DNA of 42,758 nucleotides from a virus, in IMG/VR virus record IMGVR_UViG_3300032675_000048, positions 1 to 42,758 of that record. One strand, 5' to 3'. This document shows positions 2,960 to 36,690 of the stretch, in pieces. The notes under the pieces are model-generated. The model saw nothing but the letters and a program-made list of their open reading frames with translations. It did not search any database and had not been told where the DNA came from. A program made the position numbers and the translations under genes. The first letter of the stretch is position 1. Every line of letters begins with the position of its first letter.

Positions 2960-5149
2960 ATGGCAACCAAGAGTTCACAAGTCCAAGCTCTTATGGCAAC
3001 AAGTCGAGGCACCACTATTCAGACGCCGACGCGCCAGGGCAACCCCATGCTTCAGGGGTATAACAACTGGGCCTCGATGTACGGCACTGCGTTGCCGCGT
3101 ACCTTTGATACGTTTCGCAGCGGCGACTTCTCGCCGATGGAGCCGATCCTTCCGAACCCGATTGATATCCCGGAAGGTCCCTCTGGTCGCCCGCGCCCCA
3201 GACGATTTCAATTCCCCGTTGGGTGGAACCTTCCCGTAGGTCAGCCAGGTACCGAAGGTATCAAGCTCGCCAACTTTCAAGTTCTACGAGACTTAGCTGA
3301 AGTTGGGTCGATCCCACGTCGCGCGATTGAGATCTGTAAGTCCGACATCTTGAACATGGAATGGAACATCGTTCCTACCCCCGCTGCAGAGAAGGCAATG
3401 CAGGGGAACCCATCCAAGCGCAAAGACTTTGAAGTTCGCCGTGCAGAGTTGTGGAACTGGATCATGTACGAGATCGACCCTGGCAACTACTCAGGGTTCT
3501 ACGAATGGCTCAACGCATTCCTTGAAGATCTGATTGTGCTCGATGCTGTATCGGTGCATGTGCAAGGTACCGTTGGCAAGAACGCTGGTGTGCTCGGATC
3601 GAATGTGGCTGCCCTTGAGCTGATCGACGGATCAACTATTCGTCCGTTGCTGAATACGTGGGGCGCGAAACCGTTGCCTCCTCAGCCTGCATATCAACAA
3701 CTCATTTGGGGCGTGCCGCGCGTTGACTTGATGGACATCATTAACTTGGGTCCCGATGCAACGATTGACGACTTGAAAGAACTCAACCCCATCATCGAGG
3801 AGTTAACCGAATCGGTTGACGAATGGTCGAGCGATCAGCTTCTGTACATTCGCCAGAACACCCGTGCGTGGACCCCGTATGGTTTTGGTCCACTTGAGCA
3901 GTGCCTCTTGCCGGTCTCGATTATGATGGCACGCCAAACATGGCAGTGGGAGTTCTACCGTTCCGGTTCCTTGCCATCTGTGTTCCTCGATCCTGGCGAG
4001 ATGGTGGCAACTGCTGAAGAAGCGCGTGAACTCCAAGAGGCAATCAACATGACCGGCGGGGATCTCGGAGCTCGTCATCAGGTGATTGTACTGCCTCCCG
4101 GCGCGAAGGTCATGCCACAAAAGGAAATCACACAAGGCGACAGCTTTGACACGTTAATGGTGTCCGAGGTTGCTATGGCCTTTGGTCTGCAGATTTCTGA
4201 CCTAGGGCTCACACCAAAGGTCGGAACCCTTCAGTCTCCGTCACAGGCCAAACGTGACGCAGAGGTTGCGTTGGACATGACCGTCCGTCGCTCCGCCCTG
4301 CCGCGAGCGCATCTCATTGAGAGAATCTTTACTCGTCTGTTCCAGATTCAATTTGGACAAGCGGACATGATGTTTACCGCAGGCATTGCTGATGCTGGCG
4401 AAAATGTTCAAGACGTACAAAAGCAGTGGATTGATCGTGTCAACAACTCGATTGCATCTATTGACGAGGCACGTGTTGAGCTTGGTATGGACCCATTGGG
4501 TGAGCCATGGTCAACAGTACCGCTGGCATTTACATCGAACTCCATTATGCCGTTGGGAGCTGAGATTGAGATGATCTCACGCGACATGAACCCCAACACC
4601 GGCAGCTCCGACAATGGACCTGCTGATCCGACACGAGGCGAGCAAGTCGTTGACCCTACTCCTCAAGCTGCTGGACCGAGCGGGCCTGCGACTGCATCAC
4701 ACGCCGCTTCCCGAGAGACAGAAAGCAAATCATTTCACGTGACCAAGGCAAAGAAGAAACAGGCAACGCCGCTTCCCGAGAACGATCTTGTACATCAGTA
4801 TCTGACGGAGTCATATCCAGAAGACAGCCTCGACTGGGTACACAACATGTCATGGGAACTTCAAGATGTCCCTACAGAAAACATTTCTGTTACTGGGCCT
4901 TCTACTGAAGAAGACATTGAAGATATTAAGAAAAAGGCAAAGAAGCTTCGTAAAGGTAAGAAGATGAAGCCAATTGTTGCAGTCGACCCAGGTGAAGACG
5001 GTTTGTTACAAGTTGCCGATGGGCATCACCGAGTTACTGCTGCAGTACTTGCCGATCTTAGTTCAGTTCCTGCATGGGTAGGTACTCCACAAAAGAAAGA
5101 TGACTGGCGTCGTCAGATTATGGATATGCAGATTGAGCGAGATATTTAG
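2960..5149 (+). CDS. Portal protein with C-terminal ParB-like domain
   Basis: A 729-residue protein. The central part reads as a dodecameric siphovirus portal: VGSIPRRAIEICKSDILNMEW, a helical body with FGFGPLEQCL-like and QWEFYRSGSLPSVFLDPGE segments, and the QISDLGL clip region. From about residue 590 it continues through a low-complexity linker (KKKAKKLRKGKK) into a compact domain with VADGHHRVTAAVLAD near residues 684-698, matching the DGHHRxxA signature of ParB/sulfiredoxin-fold domains. Portals of this type normally end near 480-550 residues, so the extra ~120 residues form a fusion. ATG 2960 follows AAGGAG. Portal call strong; ParB-like call moderate, its activity unknown. Confidence 0.9.
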   Translation: MATKSSQVQALMATSRGTTIQTPTRQGNPMLQGYNNWASMYGTALPRTFDTFRSGDFSPMEPILPNPIDIPEGPSGRPRPRRFQFPVGWNLPVGQPGTEGIKLANFQVLRDLAEVGSIPRRAIEICKSDILNMEWNIVPTPAAEKAMQGNPSKRKDFEVRRAELWNWIMYEIDPGNYSGFYEWLNAFLEDLIVLDAVSVHVQGTVGKNAGVLGSNVAALELIDGSTIRPLLNTWGAKPLPPQPAYQQLIWGVPRVDLMDIINLGPDATIDDLKELNPIIEELTESVDEWSSDQLLYIRQNTRAWTPYGFGPLEQCLLPVSIMMARQTWQWEFYRSGSLPSVFLDPGEMVATAEEARELQEAINMTGGDLGARHQVIVLPPGAKVMPQKEITQGDSFDTLMVSEVAMAFGLQISDLGLTPKVGTLQSPSQAKRDAEVALDMTVRRSALPRAHLIERIFTRLFQIQFGQADMMFTAGIADAGENVQDVQKQWIDRVNNSIASIDEARVELGMDPLGEPWSTVPLAFTSNSIMPLGAEIEMISRDMNPNTGSSDNGPADPTRGEQVVDPTPQAAGPSGPATASHAASRETESKSFHVTKAKKKQATPLPENDLVHQYLTESYPEDSLDWVHNMSWELQDVPTENISVTGPSTEEDIEDIKKKAKKLRKGKKMKPIVAVDPGEDGLLQVADGHHRVTAAVLADLSSVPAWVGTPQKKDDWRRQIMDMQIERDI

Positions 5150-5205: not shown

Positions 5206-7602
5206 GTGGCTAAGTTCCCGCAAGCACATTTAACTGTTCCAATTACTAAACGTGATAAGAACGCAGACGGTTCTGTCACCGTTCGTGGACCCGTCACCGA
5301 TGACTCTCTTGACCTTGATGGCCAAATTGTTGACGCTGATTCTGCAGCAAAGGCACTTCAGGGCTGGTTTGACGAATGGGCAAACGTTCGTCAACAACAC
5401 TCACCTTTGCTTCCCCCTGCAGGTAAGGGAGTGCAACTTGACTTTATTGATCGAGTTCCTTACCTCACCGCAAAAATTATTGAACCCACTGCCGTAAAGC
5501 TTGTGAATGAGGGTGTGTATCAAGCATTCTCTATTGGCATTGCTGACGGAGAACTTGATACTTCTCCCGGTGCTCGTCAAAAAGCAAAGAACGGAATTCT
5601 TTATCCAAGTCTTATTAATGAAGTTTCCGTTGTTGACTACCCTGCTAACACCTCATGCAAGTTTGTTATGGGACGTAAGCGTAAGGGCAAGATGCAAATT
5701 GTTGAGGCCGTTGAGATCGTGAATGAAAACTTAAAGGGCCTTGACGGTGATGCGTTTGTAAAGGCACTTAAGGGTTTGCAACACGGAGAGATTGTTGCCA
5801 CGTTCAAGAGCAACTCCGAAGCACTTGCTGTTCGTGAGTCAAGCTACGACCCGAACTTGTTCGAGGTCGATGGCAACGTCATTGTCACCAAGAGGAAGAT
5901 GGATCCTGATGTTGGTGGCGGTACGGATCGTGACAAGATCCCCTCAGAAGATTTTGCAGGCAAGAACCGCAGCTTCCCGATTGTCACACCGGGAGATGTG
6001 AGTGATGCCGCATCAAGTATTGGTCGCGCTGGCAAAGATAACTACTCGTCAGACCAATTGAAAAAAAACATCATCACGATTGCACGCCGTAAGGGTGAGT
6101 CGTTTGTTGATGAATTGCCCGAATCATGGAAGGCGGAGATGGGCGAAGACAAGAAGGACAAGAAGGCTAAGGCATCAAAGGCCGCAGGTCGCTCACAGTG
6201 TTCCGCTTGTGAAGGTACGGGCACATGCGACAACGGCAAGTGCATGAAGTGCAAAGGCAAGGGATACATGAAGGTCAAGAAGGGAAACATTCCCGACGTT
6301 GACGCAGATGTTACCGATGCTCTGGTTGATGCAGACTCAGGTTTGCATGACGCCATGAACGCACAGTCAGAGGACAACGCCGCTCACCGTACAGGTGACG
6401 ACGACAACGACATGGACAAGAAGAAGTCCAAGAAGTCCAAGAAGTCCAAGAAGCAGATGAAGGACATGAAGGGCAAGAAAGAGGACAAGGAAACCCTTGA
6501 GCCTACGAAACCCGTCAAGCCCACAAAGGCAACCAAGTCGCAGATGCGTGCAATGAAAAAGTTGCACGACATTTTGTGCCCTGCGTGTAACACAAAGGGT
6601 GTCAACAAGAAGGAGCTTGCCGAGATCCTCGACACTGAAATCTTCCGCGAGGGAGTTCAAAAGTCGTCCGGTCCGAAGGCAGATCCCGCGACTATTGCTG
6701 CTGCATCACAGGCGTTCCTGGCTGCACACAACGTCACCCAGATGGAAGTCAAAGACTTCAACGCTTTGCAACGCATCGCACAGAAGTCGTACCAAGACTC
6801 GTACCCAAACTTGAATGTTTCAAGTCCGAACCTGGAAGATCCTTCCTCGTTCCAACGTGGGTTCCTTCCTGGTGCAACTGACGAAACTGCAAGCACCATG
6901 AACCACCCAACGAACTTCCCGAAGCCAACCCCACTGGCTGCAAGCGACTTCCAACGCGGTCCTTTGACCACGAACGAAACTCGTCCCTCGCTGGTCGGTG
7001 GCACCTCGATGGCAGACATGGTCTCCACCAAGAGCGCACAAGGCTTCTACCCGGAAGCTGGTGCTTCAATGGCAAAGCTTCACGACGCAATCGCCATGAA
7101 CTACCCGAGCATTTGCCCGGCTGGTGACGGTATTGCAAATGAATCTGGTCAGCGACTTGGTACCGCACCGGAGATGTACTCACCTGCATCACCGCTCGGT
7201 TCGGTTCCTACCTTCCCAGACTCAACTCTCCACAACGTGGAGAATGTTGGTGCTGCTTCAAAGAGTAAAAACTCGAAGAAGAAGCTCAAGAAGGAAATCG
7301 CAAAAGCGACCAAAGGTTACGCCAAGCGCGTTGCCAAGTTGGAGAAAACTTTGAAGGAGCAACTCGCTCGTCCTGACGTCAGCACTGCTGCACGTCGGAT
7401 TGCAGAGTTTGCACCTGCACACAAGGCGTTCGCCTCTGCGGAGGTCGACGAAACAAAACGGGAACGTGTCCAACGTGCCCGCGAATTGTCTAAGCGGATT
7501 CACGACCGTAACTCGGACGTGTCACACGCAGCAATTGTTGAACTTCAGGAACTTGTAAGTCCTGACAAGTTCGCTGCGTTGATGACCGCAGACGGCGAAT
7601 AA
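5206..7602 (+). CDS. Capsid maturation protease fused to zinc finger and scaffold-like region
   Basis: A 798-residue protein starting at GTG 5206, just 3 nt after GGAGG. Residues 1-155 resemble S78-type prohead protease: likely catalytic His65 (RQQHSP), Ser109 (AFSIGI) and an acidic residue in NEVSVVDYPAN. Residues ~240-315 hold a KIPSEDFAGKNRSFPI segment also seen in other phage head proteins. A DnaJ-type zinc module follows: CSACEGTGTC (Cys332, 335, 341) and CMKCKGKG, plus a later CPAC. A (KKS)n tract and a coiled-coil C-terminus (~690-798) resemble a scaffold. It lies between portal and capsid genes, as expected. The fusion with a CxxCxGxG zinc module is unusual. Confidence 0.88.
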   Translation: MAKFPQAHLTVPITKRDKNADGSVTVRGPVTDDSLDLDGQIVDADSAAKALQGWFDEWANVRQQHSPLLPPAGKGVQLDFIDRVPYLTAKIIEPTAVKLVNEGVYQAFSIGIADGELDTSPGARQKAKNGILYPSLINEVSVVDYPANTSCKFVMGRKRKGKMQIVEAVEIVNENLKGLDGDAFVKALKGLQHGEIVATFKSNSEALAVRESSYDPNLFEVDGNVIVTKRKMDPDVGGGTDRDKIPSEDFAGKNRSFPIVTPGDVSDAASSIGRAGKDNYSSDQLKKNIITIARRKGESFVDELPESWKAEMGEDKKDKKAKASKAAGRSQCSACEGTGTCDNGKCMKCKGKGYMKVKKGNIPDVDADVTDALVDADSGLHDAMNAQSEDNAAHRTGDDDNDMDKKKSKKSKKSKKQMKDMKGKKEDKETLEPTKPVKPTKATKSQMRAMKKLHDILCPACNTKGVNKKELAEILDTEIFREGVQKSSGPKADPATIAAASQAFLAAHNVTQMEVKDFNALQRIAQKSYQDSYPNLNVSSPNLEDPSSFQRGFLPGATDETASTMNHPTNFPKPTPLAASDFQRGPLTTNETRPSLVGGTSMADMVSTKSAQGFYPEAGASMAKLHDAIAMNYPSICPAGDGIANESGQRLGTAPEMYSPASPLGSVPTFPDSTLHNVENVGAASKSKNSKKKLKKEIAKATKGYAKRVAKLEKTLKEQLARPDVSTAARRIAEFAPAHKAFASAEVDETKRERVQRARELSKRIHDRNSDVSHAAIVELQELVSPDKFAALMTADGE

Positions 7603-7612
7603 CGGAGGAAAT

Positions 7613-9508
7613 GTGGCAAACGGATGGGGTTCAGACCTGGCAGGTACGCTGCAAGGCGCAACTGCTAAGGGTGCGAGCCGTAACCGACTCGATGGTCTCC
7701 GTGAGGCTGTCGAATCGGGTCGATACGGCGAAGGCAAGAAGGGTGCTCGCAACTTCCGCGATACTCTTATGCCGCAAATGGTTAAGGGTTATGGTCTCCT
7801 GCAAAGCTCCGGTGGTGGTCTGTCCACTCGCACCGAGCTTTCGGACCCGCGTCAGATTCAGCGTCTTGCTGACTACGCATCAGAGACTTTGCGTCAGGTC
7901 ACCATTAAGGGTCTGACCAAGCCGCACAAGGCAGTGAAGGGCTTCTCTGGCCCATTCCAGGCTGCAGTCAACGCGATGAACATGTTCAGCCCGCAGGCTG
8001 TTGCTGGAAGCATCAACTCCAATCAATGGAGCAAGGAGATTGGTCAGGCGATTGGTAAGAGCTTTACGCTCTCCACGCCACTGTCGTCCGGTTTTGTGCC
8101 GTTCGACCTCGTGCCGTTCGTTCGCACGATCTACCCTGTCTACACGCCGCTTCGTAATAAGCTTCCGCGTGTGCCTGGTCAGGGTACGTCTCACCGTGCA
8201 AAGATCATGTCCAACATCACTGGGTCGCTCCCGAACAACTTGGGCACCCTGCAAGATGACTCCACGTACGAGTGGTTCTCATCCGGTGGTGGACCTCTTA
8301 CATGGCCGAACAACCTGCCAGCAACTGGTTCGCAGAGCGCATACGACATGCAGATCCCTTATCAGTTCTACGCACTGACTGAGTCCACCTCGTGGCTTGC
8401 TCAGTTCGCTGGTCAGGGCTTTGATGACATCTACGGACTGTCATCGCTCGTCCTTCTTCAAGAGTTCATGCTCCTCGAAGAGCACGACATCTTGGCATCG
8501 ACTGCCGTTCCGCTTGCAACTCCTGCAGCACCAACGGTTGCACAGCGTACTGCTGGCGCATCTGAGTCGCCTGTCACTGGCGTCACGACCAACGTGTACG
8601 TCAAGATTGCAGCGATCAACTTCTGGGGTCAGACTGCAGCTTCGCCTGCAGCGACTGTCAGCAGCTTCACCACTGGTGACGTGATTGACATTACGATCTC
8701 ACCTGTCGCTGGTGCGATGAACTACGTGATCTACGTGGCGACCGGCGCATCGGCTGGTACCTACTACCAGTGGACGACCGGCACGCAAGGCGGTACCGTC
8801 GGCGGTATCAAGTTCACCCTTCAGGGTGCGCTCCCAACCTCCGGCAACACGCCTTCGGCAACTGACACCGGCACCTACGCATCGACTCGTGCTGAGTCGT
8901 TGATCTCCGTGCTCTCGGGTCACGCTTCGTCGACGGTCAGCGGTATCACTGGTCCATACCCAGGCGCTTCGGCTGGTGTGTACCCTGGTTACTACAACAA
9001 CGCTGAGGGTGTCACCCTGAACGTCTCGACTGTTCAGGCGGCACTGCAGCAGATGTTCAACGGGACGCACGGATACTTTGCGAACCCGTCAGAGATCATC
9101 ACCTCCGCAAACGACGCTTACAACTTGGCTCAGTCGATCCAAGGCGAGAGTGTTGCTGCATACCAGCTTCGCGTTCAGCAGAACGAAATGTCTGACGTGA
9201 CTGCCGGTATCGCTGTGGCAAACGTGGTTAACCCAGTTACCCGTTCCGCCCCGGAGATTATCGTCCACCCATACTTGCCGCAAGGTAACGCGCTCTTGAT
9301 GAGCTACACCCTGCCGCAGACCCAGAACAACCTCGGCAACGTGGTTGAGATGGCAATGGTTCAGGACTACGCACAAATCGGCTGGCCGGTCATCGACCCT
9401 GCCTTCCGTCAATCAATCCTCCGCTACGGTACGTTCTTCATGGCCGCACCGCAGTACTGTGGTTTGATTCAGGGATTGCAGAACAGCTCGACGACACCGT
9501 ATAGCTGA
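7613..9508 (+). CDS. Major capsid protein (HK97-like) with inserted beta domain
   Basis: A 631-residue protein positioned directly after the protease/scaffold, starting at GTG 7613 four nt after GGAGG; an out-of-frame ATG overlaps it. The N-terminal ~100 residues would be the delta/N-arm, followed by an HK97-type body (FVPFDLVPFVRTIYPVYTPL, P-loop-like and E-loop regions). Residues ~303-420 form an insertion resembling a fibronectin III/Ig-like beta domain (PTGVxVKIAAINFWGQT pattern, then VAGAMNYVIYVATG). The C-terminal A-domain ends with PVIDPAFRQSILRYGTFF. The length is well above the usual 300-400 residues, mostly because of this insertion, which probably projects from the capsid surface. 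Confidence 0.9.
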   Translation: MANGWGSDLAGTLQGATAKGASRNRLDGLREAVESGRYGEGKKGARNFRDTLMPQMVKGYGLLQSSGGGLSTRTELSDPRQIQRLADYASETLRQVTIKGLTKPHKAVKGFSGPFQAAVNAMNMFSPQAVAGSINSNQWSKEIGQAIGKSFTLSTPLSSGFVPFDLVPFVRTIYPVYTPLRNKLPRVPGQGTSHRAKIMSNITGSLPNNLGTLQDDSTYEWFSSGGGPLTWPNNLPATGSQSAYDMQIPYQFYALTESTSWLAQFAGQGFDDIYGLSSLVLLQEFMLLEEHDILASTAVPLATPAAPTVAQRTAGASESPVTGVTTNVYVKIAAINFWGQTAASPAATVSSFTTGDVIDITISPVAGAMNYVIYVATGASAGTYYQWTTGTQGGTVGGIKFTLQGALPTSGNTPSATDTGTYASTRAESLISVLSGHASSTVSGITGPYPGASAGVYPGYYNNAEGVTLNVSTVQAALQQMFNGTHGYFANPSEIITSANDAYNLAQSIQGESVAAYQLRVQQNEMSDVTAGIAVANVVNPVTRSAPEIIVHPYLPQGNALLMSYTLPQTQNNLGNVVEMAMVQDYAQIGWPVIDPAFRQSILRYGTFFMAAPQYCGLIQGLQNSSTTPYS

Positions 9509-29363: not shown

Positions 29364-29570
29364 CTACAAAAATGGAACAGATCCAACCCCAAGGCATTGA
29401 AAACAATATCCGTAATACTTCATGTCTGACGTGTAGATCAATCCATTGCCCCAACAAATTGAGCACGTTGTCCATTTTGCATCAGGTATTGATGTTTGTT
29501 CTGAGCGCGATTGACCAGTAGCTGTGCGTTTACTTGACCAACCTATCTCGCGACGGATTCCCGCAAGCAT
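29364..29570 (-). CDS. Small DnaJ-type zinc-finger protein
   Basis: A 68-residue protein with two CxxCxGxG-like knuckles, CSICWGNG and CFQCLGVG, the pattern of the DnaJ zinc centre, in its C-terminal half. The N-terminus is basic and Ser/Arg rich. The ATG follows AAAGGGG. It is the last gene of the leftward arm, 21 nt after the metallophosphoesterase. The same motif type appears in the capsid protease fusion. Function unknown. Confidence 0.7.
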   Translation of the reverse strand: MLAGIRREIGWSSKRTATGQSRSEQTSIPDAKWTTCSICWGNGLIYTSDMKYYGYCFQCLGVGSVPFL

Positions 29571-31172: not shown

Positions 31173-31489
31173 GGTAACAATGTGTTTGGAACAATGAGAA
31201 CCGAGATGGTCCCAACTGCTTGACCGACACCACGAGAAATGCCTGCGCCCTGAAATGTTCCCGACATTGAAGTCGTGTCAACGCGGGCACGATACTCGCC
31301 TGTTCCTGTACGCCATACGGTGTTTGTTCCTGGCGTTAAGGCTCCGGTGTATGTGAACTTGATTGGTCCCACGGTGCCACAAGTGAAATTGAATTCCACA
31401 ATGTCAGGGTCTACAAGATTCCCCGATTCATCTATGACGGAGAATGGGAAATCGACAAGGTCTCCCTGCACGTATTTTGTGATGCTCAT
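31169..31489 (-). CDS. Small beta-sandwich fibre-associated protein
   Basis: A 106-residue protein with a beta pattern typical of small baseplate or fibre proteins: VQGDLVDFPFSVIDESGNLV, VEFNFTCGTVGPIKFTYTG and GTGEYRARVDTT. It starts inside an ATGA overlap with the giant repeat protein and overlaps the DUF6378-like gene downstream. Likely attached to the fibre complex of the leftward arm; the family is not named with confidence. Confidence 0.65.
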   Translation of the reverse strand: MSITKYVQGDLVDFPFSVIDESGNLVDPDIVEFNFTCGTVGPIKFTYTGALTPGTNTVWRTGTGEYRARVDTTSMSGTFQGAGISRGVGQAVGTISVLIVPNTLLP

Positions 31490-34434
31490 ATGGAATCAAT
31501 CTCCATTGTGTTGACTGCTTGAGAAGATATACCAGTATCGTAAACGGCTTCACTGGAAAGTGTAGTAGTTGTTACGAGTTCGCTGCTGACATTCAAAGTG
31601 TTTGTAGACTGAGACGTTACGTTTGCAACGTACGCCAGCAAACTGCTGACGGTAATAAACGCAAGGAACTGCTGACGAGTTGTTGCCGTTCCCATTGCAA
31701 TGAAGTTGACCGAGAGTTGCCCAACGCTCGGAAAGAACGCTGATGCTGTACCACTTGCGGTAAAGGTTGTTGTACCAGAACCTGTCCCATTCTGTACAAC
31801 TGTTCCCGTGCTGGTTGCACCAAAGACAAAGCTTCCTGTACCAACCTCGGGGCAAACAACCAGCGCAGTTGATGATGCGGTAAAGGTTGACGTACCTGTG
31901 CCAGTTGCAGACAGGGAGACAATTGCGCTTGCTGCGCCAGCAAATTGATAGGTGCCGGTGCCGGTCTCAATTGCAATAACCAAACCAGTACCGGAACCAT
32001 TGAAGGCTCCGCTTCCTGATGCAGTACTTGGCTCAACGAGGACAGCAGAGGAAACAGCGGAGAATCCAAATACGCCAGCGGCGGTTGCAAACTCCTCAAC
32101 CGTTGCGGAAGAAATTCCCAGATAAGCCGAGACAAACGCTGCGCTCGCAGGGACGATAGTGCTAGCAGTACTTGCTCCGTTGTAATTGAAGCTGGCAGAT
32201 CCCGTCTCCGGCACCACCACCGTAGCGGTAGCAGTTGCGGAGAAATCAAACGACTCAGTTGCAGTAGCGGGAACAACAACCGTGGCAGTTGATGATCCCG
32301 AGAAACTGTACGACCCTGTTCCCACATATGGCAGGAACCATATTGCGGTTCCACTTCCAGCAAACTCGTAGGTACCAGATCCGCTAGCGGAGAAAACAAG
32401 ACCAAGTGCAGACCCGCTAAAGTTGTACGTTCCAGTTGCGGTGGCAGGAACAACGATAAGTCCAGCAACAGAAGCAGAGAAGCCAAACGATCCGCTTGCG
32501 GTTGAGGGTTCAACCAGCGTAGCCGTTGATACTGCGGTAAAGGCAAACGCTTCAGCAGCGGTTGCGCTTTCAACCGTGGTTGCTGTTGATGTTGCGGCAA
32601 ATCCAAATGTTGCTGCCGCAGTTGCAAGAACAACTATTGTTGCGGTAGATGATGCGTTGTAACTAAAAGATCCGGAACCGATCTCTTGTGCTACAACTGT
32701 AGCCGTCGATGTCGCCGCAAACGATGCAGAGAAAGTTCCCGTTGCTGAGATTGTTGTAACTGCCGTACTTGTTGCCGAGAACGAGTACGTTCCGCTCGCA
32801 ATCGAGGGTTCAACAACAGTTGCGGTCGAAACAGCAGTGAAGGCAAACGCTCCGGCTGCGGTAGCTGACTCGACTGTTGTTGCTGTGGATACGCCAGCAA
32901 ATCCAAACGCTGCGGCAGCGGTCGCCGTTTCTACCGTGGTAGCAGTTGAGACTCCTGAGAAACTAAACGCTGCGGTAGCGGTCGCAGGCACAACAACCGT
33001 TGCCGTGGACGACGCGCTAAAACTGAATGACCCAGACGCGGTTGCGGGAACCACAACTGTTGCGGTGGATGATCCTGAGTACGAGTACGTTCCTGTTGCT
33101 GTTGCTGGAACCACAACCGTTGCTGTTGCGCTTCCAGCAAAATTGAATGAACTTGCGCCCGTGGCCGTAATAACAACAGTTGCCGTAGATGCACCAGAGA
33201 AGCTGTAGGTACCTGTTGCAGTAGCGGGCACCACCACGATGGCAGTTGCTGACGCTGAGAAACTGTATGCGCCAGATCCTGTAGCGGGCAGAACATTAAC
33301 GCCAGTACCAGAACCAGAGAACGCGAAGCCAGATGAACCCGTACTTGGCTCAACAACTGTCGCCGAAGAAACGCCAGCAAATCCAAACGCTGCTGCTGCT
33401 GTTGCGTTCTCAACCGTTGTTGCTGTAGATACAGCGGTAAATGCCAAAACCATCGCAGCAGTTGCTGGGATAGTGACAACACCTGTTGCCGTTCCCGAGA
33501 ATGCAAATGATCCAGTCCCGGTGAAATTGTCAATGACAACAGAAGTAACCGAGCCACTGCTTGCTTGAGTATCTGTGGCAGTGCGCGAGAATCCAACAGA
33601 ACGTCTAAGAGTGTCGGAGCTTGCTTGTGTGTCGCTTGCGCTGCGCGAGAATCCAACGGAGCGCGATACAAAATCACTTGAGCTTTGTGTGTCGCTCGCA
33701 GAACGCTTGTACGTTCCTACCGTGCTAAGAGAGTCAGAGCTTGCCTGAGTATCAGTAGCGGTTCTTTTGGCAACCGTGACGCGAGTGACCGTATCGGAGC
33801 TTGCTTGCGTGTCCAAAATGGTTCTTGAATATGTTGCAACACGACTTGCGGTATCGCTGGAAGTTTGTGTGTCGCTTGCAGAACGAGAAAACGCGACATT
33901 GCGCGTGATCGAATCTGATGAAGATTGGCTATCTGCAACGGAACGAGTAAAACTAGATTTTGTATTTACTGAATCCGATGACGCTTGTGTATCTGTTTGA
34001 GTGCGAGAGAACGCGACGAATCGCGTGGCGGTATCGCTTGACCCTTGTGTGTCGTTAGCAGCACGACGCGAAACCGTAACTCTGACAAGAGTATCGGTTG
34101 ACGCTTGAGTATCCGAAACAGAACGAACAGTTGTCGCAACTCGCGTGACGGAGTCAGACGATGCTTGAGTATCCGTAATAGAACGAGCAAACTTGACCGC
34201 TCGCGTAACGGTGTCTGAGCTAGCCTGAGTATCTGTGGCAGTACGGCTAGCTGTTACAACGCGGGTGACAGAATCTGTACTAGCCTGAGTATCTGTAGCG
34301 GTACGTTTGGCAACTGTAACGCGGGTGACAGTGTCTGAGCTTGCTTGAGTATCTGTGTTGGTACGAGTGTATTGTTTGGGAAGCTTGCCAGACCCATAAG
34401 GTACGCCCGCGTAAGTTGCGCCTCCGTATGCCAT
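31486..34434 (-). CDS. Giant 20-residue-repeat virion (fibre-like) protein
   Basis: A 982-residue protein built almost wholly of repeats. After a short Gly/Tyr-rich N-terminus come ~14 tandem 20-residue units of type TDTQASSDTVTRVTVAKRTA (residues ~27-306). These are followed by ~31 units of type TATGTYSFSGSSTATVVVPA (~305-924), then a short Ser/Thr-rich tail. Both unit types share the same length, suggesting one strand or solenoid turn each and a long rod. No signal peptide or membrane segment. The genes around it are tail-fibre-like, so a fibre shaft or envelope-binding rod is inferred. ATG 34434 lacks a clear ribosome site. Confidence 0.78.
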   Translation of the reverse strand: MAYGGATYAGVPYGSGKLPKQYTRTNTDTQASSDTVTRVTVAKRTATDTQASTDSVTRVVTASRTATDTQASSDTVTRAVKFARSITDTQASSDSVTRVATTVRSVSDTQASTDTLVRVTVSRRAANDTQGSSDTATRFVAFSRTQTDTQASSDSVNTKSSFTRSVADSQSSSDSITRNVAFSRSASDTQTSSDTASRVATYSRTILDTQASSDTVTRVTVAKRTATDTQASSDSLSTVGTYKRSASDTQSSSDFVSRSVGFSRSASDTQASSDTLRRSVGFSRTATDTQASSGSVTSVVIDNFTGTGSFAFSGTATGVVTIPATAAMVLAFTAVSTATTVENATAAAAFGFAGVSSATVVEPSTGSSGFAFSGSGTGVNVLPATGSGAYSFSASATAIVVVPATATGTYSFSGASTATVVITATGASSFNFAGSATATVVVPATATGTYSYSGSSTATVVVPATASGSFSFSASSTATVVVPATATAAFSFSGVSTATTVETATAAAAFGFAGVSTATTVESATAAGAFAFTAVSTATVVEPSIASGTYSFSATSTAVTTISATGTFSASFAATSTATVVAQEIGSGSFSYNASSTATIVVLATAAATFGFAATSTATTVESATAAEAFAFTAVSTATLVEPSTASGSFGFSASVAGLIVVPATATGTYNFSGSALGLVFSASGSGTYEFAGSGTAIWFLPYVGTGSYSFSGSSTATVVVPATATESFDFSATATATVVVPETGSASFNYNGASTASTIVPASAAFVSAYLGISSATVEEFATAAGVFGFSAVSSAVLVEPSTASGSGAFNGSGTGLVIAIETGTGTYQFAGAASAIVSLSATGTGTSTFTASSTALVVCPEVGTGSFVFGATSTGTVVQNGTGSGTTTFTASGTASAFFPSVGQLSVNFIAMGTATTRQQFLAFITVSSLLAYVANVTSQSTNTLNVSSELVTTTTLSSEAVYDTGISSQAVNTMEIDSI
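31663..33522 (-). repeat. 60-bp coding repeat array 2 (YSFSGSSTATVVVP type, ~31 units)
   Basis: About 31 in-frame units of 60 bp encode alternating small/aromatic strands (xYxFSGSSTATVVVPxT). One unit is shorter by a residue; divergence increases toward the C-terminus. The pattern predicts repeated beta strands, as in a beta-solenoid or fibre shaft. Confidence 0.85.
33517..34356 (-). repeat. 60-bp coding repeat array 1 (TDTQASSD type, ~14 units)
   Basis: Fourteen in-frame units of 60 bp encode a charged Ser/Thr/Asp/Arg motif (DTQASSD...VTR...R). Units 1 and 10 encode identical peptides (TDTQASSDTVTRVTVAKRTA) but differ at many synonymous sites, so selection acts on the protein. Unit 14 is degenerate and merges into array 2. 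Confidence 0.85.
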
Positions 34435-36324: not shown

Positions 36325-36690
36325 TTACGACAGCGACAAAGTGACGGCACCCGAAGCGAAGGCAACGGTTGCACCGGAAGGCACTGAGGCCACGCCCGAC
36401 ACAGTACCTCCGCCAAGATAAGTCCCGCCCGTTGATGCCGAGTAGATGCCAAAGTATGGAACACCAGAAGCTTCAACTGGCATACCAGTAAAGTTTTGTG
36501 CGTTCGATGAAGATTGCGAACCACCTGATGCAGCAGCCCAAGTGATTGACTGGCGTGCGTATGAGCCACCAGTTACTTCAGAACCCGAGCCCGTAGTACC
36601 GGGGTCAGTTGTGAACAACGCCAAGTACTGGGTTCCAGTAAACACTGAACCGAGCATTGTGTTGGCAGATGTTGGGTTAAGACGTGCCAT
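36325..36690 (-). CDS. Small tail fibre-type virion protein
   Basis: A 121-residue protein with a recognisable phage virion pattern: YLALFTTDPGTTGSGSEVTG, GSYARQSITWAAASGGSQSS, and VPYFGIYSASTGGTYLGGG. Proteins with this pattern occur in tail-fibre clusters. It starts behind GGAGGG (plus-strand CCCTCC at 36699-36704). First of the leftward fibre block in transcription order. Confidence 0.75.
   Translation of the reverse strand: MARLNPTSANTMLGSVFTGTQYLALFTTDPGTTGSGSEVTGGSYARQSITWAAASGGSQSSSNAQNFTGMPVEASGVPYFGIYSASTGGTYLGGGTVSGVASVPSGATVAFASGAVTLSLS

Follow-up and report, generated by a model that had tools for sequence, protein, structure and literature searches.

What a zinc module of the DnaJ type does inside a protein that appears to build phage capsids is the question raised by this locus. 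The window, i.e., the whole stretch of 42,758 bases making up the IMG/VR virus record IMGVR_UViG_3300032675_000048, contains at 5206..7602 (+) an open frame of 798 residues with a GTG start and GGAGG just upstream, which is read here as a capsid protease-scaffold fusion protein. It sits between the gene of the portal protein at 2960..5149 (+; phrog_2662) and that of the major capsid protein at 7613..9508 (+; phrog_13692, E 1.7e-53). The latter is the presumed substrate of the protease, and its homologue in phage MMB025 carries the annotation 'major head protein'. As a side observation, the portal protein bears a ParB-like domain at its C-terminus (phrog_1033, E 5e-6), and this region is matched within the same open frame in the portals of the related contigs L204 and L206 as well. 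Elsewhere in the window, a gene at 36325-36690 (-) has matches to phrog_240 'head protein' and to the Pfam family Gp80 (podophage GP4 fiber I), although a structural gene would be oddly placed among these minus-strand genes, and a 982-residue protein at 31486-34434 (-) has no PHROGs or Pfam match at the thresholds applied.

The N-terminal part of the fusion protein offers the firmest ground. Its protease domain comprises residues 1-157 (5206..5676, +), with His65 at nt 5398-5400 and Ser109 at nt 5530-5532. When the relatives are clustered at 90% identity, both residues, together with Glu139, Asp144, Asn60, Arg62 and Gly111, are unchanged in every cluster (55/55). AlphaFold models residues 11-140 as a block with pLDDT 89-98, and the top Foldseek match of this predicted fold is T4 gp21 (5jbl, E 1.5e-4, probability 1.00), followed by herpesvirus proteases with weaker scores. 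No Pfam S78 match was returned for the window protein by a whole-protein scan to E 1, while some of its relatives do match. Judged by modelled fold and conserved His/Ser pair, the protein is a prohead protease of the gp21/S78/XkdF kind, as the first-pass annotation of this DNA had stated in naming an S78-like protease with His65 and Ser109. A separate observation concerns Alicyclobacillus phage MMB025, whose protease (L003:7995-9566) and capsid protein (L003:9569-11023) have an almost identical segment in common (KTLDTSSGLQPYNLD / KTFDTSSGLQPYNLE), which may be a shared cleavage or docking site. Such a capsid-mimicking segment within the protease is clear in MMB025, weak in Thermoanaerobacterium phage THSA-485A and not significant in the window.

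Downstream of the protease, a helical 'FPI' segment resembling DUF6582 covers residues 241-308 (5926..6129, +; family profile 26.8 bits, block pLDDT 84-97) and corresponds to the KIPSEDFAG segment described before. It represents a widespread phage element, and the near relative L210 scores 22.6 bits against Pfam DUF6582, whose cut-off is 27.3. Further on, residues 453-458 (6562..6579, +) form an HDxxC stretch that is conserved when the window protein is aligned with six near relatives. A CPAC motif at Cys458 had been considered as a second zinc site and was dropped, as Cys458 belongs to this conserved stretch. The chain ends in helices at residues 672-795 (7219..7590, +), which AlphaFold predicts with moderate confidence (block pLDDT mostly 59-90) and which match the C-terminal profile of the family too weakly (3.7 bits) to establish a common scaffold domain. 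The helices fit the scaffold-like end noted earlier; the label 'scaffold' is here a reading from gene order and architecture, without a database match.

The module itself, CSACEGTGTCDNGKCMKCKGKG, occupies residues 332-353 (6199..6264, +), with cysteines at positions 332, 335, 341, 346 and 349, and thus lies within the interval 6184-6290 in which a CxxCxGxG module had been reported. Shuffling of the window protein reproduced a double CxxCxGxG in 0/200,000 cases and two CxxC within 30 residues in 25/200,000. By its pair of motifs and its sequence similarity, the segment fits a single zinc module of the DnaJ type: a profile of the family's modules, window included, matches the DnaJ structure 1exk with E 2.9e-9. 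The domain search proposed in the first-pass annotation likewise returned DnaJ-type similarity, at a score against Pfam PF00684 of 14.9 bits, below the cut-off of 32.7. A zinc ribbon (DZR, Zn_Ribbon_1) was not found in the window by Pfam scan. From motifs, profile and near relatives, a Zn(Cys)4 site is predicted, and on the conservation of its cysteines the module very probably binds zinc. AlphaFold models the window module with low confidence (blocks 28-42) and that of the relative L046 with moderate confidence only.

The resemblance to DnaJ had led the first-pass annotation to propose a role in folding. According to this explanation, the DnaJ-type fold would help capsid subunits to fold or recruit the host DnaK system, and it can point to 1exk as the best match of the module profile and to L046:4950-6671, where four CxxC(xGxG) motifs span positions 1-63 of 65 of the DnaJ profile (E 1.1e-6). 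Nevertheless, the window protein carries only two CxxCxGxG motifs, half the number of the DnaJ domain, and neither a J-domain nor a DnaJ C-terminal domain was found in its whole-protein Pfam scan to E 1. Moreover, the exact motif spacing recurs in unrelated phage proteins: such a short module is present in a DNA polymerase, in a protein resembling antiterminators and in small open reading frames of unrelated phages. Together with the zinc ribbons of near relatives described below, this makes the chaperone role improbable, and it is disfavoured here.

The same family profile also matches structures of UvrA (7sh1), anti-TRAP and antiterminator Q, so that the window module is better seen as a general small zinc knuckle; its score against the anti-TRAP RtpA model NF058604 (20.2 bits) stays below the cut-off of 65. 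Zinc ribbons and UvrA-type modules can bind nucleic acid. With the match to the UvrA-type 7sh1 and with lysine-rich stretches flanking the window module, a knuckle that binds DNA or RNA together with basic linkers, e.g., in head nucleation or packaging, has to be weighed. However, the KKS-rich linker at residues 405-416 (6418..6453, +), present in the sequence as the KKS repeat described earlier, is without conservation in relatives, and the neighbours of the module are often acidic in the wider family. A nucleic-acid function is thus considered unlikely.

A second protein of the same motif type had been pointed out at 29364-29570 (-), and a small stand-alone protein with CSICWGNG and CFQCLGVG is indeed encoded there. 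It comes after an exonuclease/phosphoesterase-like gene, is provided with a good ribosome-binding site (AAGGGG) and weakly matches Anti-TRAP as well as PHROGs without known function; it is probably a real small gene. Its match to the 798-residue protein is confined to the motif (21 bits, E 0.008), so the motif alone is common to both and relatedness of the two proteins is not demonstrable by sequence comparison.

An indication of what matters in the module comes from the near relatives, which were picked by a scan with the capsid protein alone and comprise L212, with 64% identity in the capsid protein, and L204-L211, with 44-49%. The protein is readable in L204, L205, L206, L207, L208, L210 and L212, and the window makes eight. 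All eight have two CxxC pairs at the corresponding site, which is bounded by the HDxxC stretch and by the FPI region, the latter being reduced or absent in L208; the linker around the pairs diverges. The type of zinc fold at this site is not constant: it is DnaJ-type in the window, L212 and L207 (3/8), and ribbon-type in L204, L205, L206, L208 and L210 (5/8), with L210 scoring above the Pfam cut-off of Zn_Ribbon_1 and the other four below theirs. On the tree of capsid proteins, the module type switched at least two times, and a grouping of the three DnaJ-type members is disfavoured (AU p 0.011 for a group that is small and chosen by the trait). As a ribbon-type pair stands in five of the eight, the features specific to DnaJ seem dispensable and the four cysteines do not. 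Their retention through fold exchange argues for a structural zinc site rather than a DnaJ-specific chaperone and suggests that the metal site is selected, the fold not. The first-pass annotation had made its case depend on conservation of the cysteines in homologues; this condition holds, with CxxC pairs in 8/8 near relatives (window included) and conserved cysteines in a sizeable clade of the wider family as well.

One arrangement among these relatives bears on the position of the module. At L207:2337-5527, a separate Peptidase_S78_2 (XkdF-like) gene (54 bits) is followed by a scaffold-like protein with the zinc module. Since this module-bearing protein lacks the protease, the module appears tied to the scaffold part. 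The arrangement speaks against a zinc or redox switch, in which loss of the metal or oxidation of the cysteines would free or activate the protease and thereby time maturation, the kind of timing control that had been suggested along with folding. Such a switch would suit the placement of the module between protease and scaffold and the persistence of four cysteines in relatives of different fold, but many relatives do without the module, and a switching function is accordingly thought to be rather unlikely.

For the wider family, genome-contig scans with the whole protein or the protease alignment gave no relatives. Three relative scans were carried out. The first was biased toward zinc-bearing proteins, as its query contained the zinc region; the second used only the protease domain, and the third was ranked by the capsid protein. 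By pattern search, the 55 clusters (90% identity) divide into 29 with a DnaJ-type module, 14 with some other Cys cluster and 12 with none; the loosest kind of Cys cluster counted was one of three Cys within 30 residues. Paired CxxC (two within 60 residues, following the protease) occur in 52/101 clusters when all three scans are pooled, compared with 0.09 expected from shuffles, and in 19/48 clusters of the capsid-ranked scan alone. Among capsid proteins they occur in 0/53, among presumed portals in 5/74. Within a clade of 21 sequences, 6/13 near-invariant columns of a 130-residue linker are Cys or Gly of the module, and the codons of the module cysteines vary between TGC and TGT among members.

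These figures also bear on a neutral explanation, by which small zinc knuckles have spread through recombination and are merely tolerated by the linker, with no selection for a role. Variation in position, type and copy number of the module, and its lack in about half of the clusters, would be expected in that case. Nevertheless, near-invariant Cys and Gly in a diverged clade despite synonymous codon variation, and a Cys4 site kept through fold exchange in all eight near relatives, are hard to reconcile with neutrality, which is regarded as improbable. In the 55-cluster set, the DnaJ-type module lies before the FPI segment wherever both were found, the window excepted. As the modules of the wider family occupy different places (ahead of the FPI segment in one clade), they need not all share one function. 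A common ancestor for all modules was considered and dropped, the module standing before FPI in the wide family and after it in the window's group. Furthermore, the isolated phages MMB025 and THSA-485A are without the module and about half of the clusters are without paired CxxC, so that a capsid can be built in this manner without the module.

The reading which is favoured here, if only by a modest degree, is that the module serves as a structural zinc contact point in procapsid assembly, within a protease-scaffold fusion that resembles gpO of phage P2; it draws on analogy with that protein. Two CxxC pairs around one Zn2+ would form a small structural knuckle, built into the middle and scaffold part of a fusion protein working like P2 gpO. 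The middle and C-terminal regions would help in nucleation and shaping of the procapsid, and the N-terminal serine protease would later cut capsid protein and scaffold. Within a flexible, low-complexity region, the knuckle could provide a rigid, folded contact point by which the scaffold associates with itself or docks onto portal or capsid protein, and it would probably leave with the scaffold at maturation. A bolder extension, which is held only tentatively and is more doubtful than the structural role, states that the zinc slot must be filled, with DnaJ-type knuckle and zinc ribbon as interchangeable folds and with procapsid assembly or scaffold release being zinc-dependent. If so, zinc-dependent assembly or scaffold release would extend across a large uncultured phage lineage. 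The swapping of unlike zinc folds at one aligned site amounts to a natural experiment, by which the function of the middle region of protease-scaffold proteins becomes a testable question. It is also a warning that the motif is no safe basis for annotating such proteins as DnaJ or chaperone.

Small zinc modules have precedents as plug-ins of phage polymerases and of antiterminator Q-like proteins. In open-access titles and abstracts, a body of literature outside which most subscription journals lie, none was found in a prohead protease, capsid maturation protease or scaffold. Among known systems, T4 gp21 and the herpesvirus assemblins share with the window the predicted protease fold (5jbl) and the conserved His and Ser, at a sequence identity to T4 gp21 of 13%. 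Unlike them, the window protease is fused in one chain to a long zinc-bearing middle and a scaffold-like region. Phages MMB025 and THSA-485A feature a homologous protease domain and the same portal/capsid neighbourhood, whereas their prohead proteases have no zinc module and almost no Cys. The cysteine-rich domain of DnaJ/Hsp40 (PF00684) shares with the window the CxxCxGxG motifs and the profile match to 1exk; in the window, two motifs stand in place of four (two zinc sites), without J-domain and DnaJ C-terminal domain. A similar two-motif insert is found in the DNA polymerase of HMO-2011-type phages, which contains a partial DnaJ domain with two CXXCXGXG motifs (PMC6918029, PMC9038755), but there it is part of a replication protein and not of a capsid protein. 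Likewise, anti-TRAP (RtpA) has a single module of the DnaJ type; it forms trimers and acts via protein contacts (PMC2896485), in line with the contact role proposed here, but is a small free regulator rather than part of a larger chain as in the window. The closest functional model, by analogy of architecture, would be gpO of phage P2, which with 284 residues combines a protease (1-141), a middle region proposed to act in portal incorporation and a scaffold (195-284) (PMC7552001). The window protein appears to follow the same succession of N-terminal serine protease, middle region and putative C-terminal scaffold; it has 798 residues and includes a DUF6582-like segment and the zinc module.
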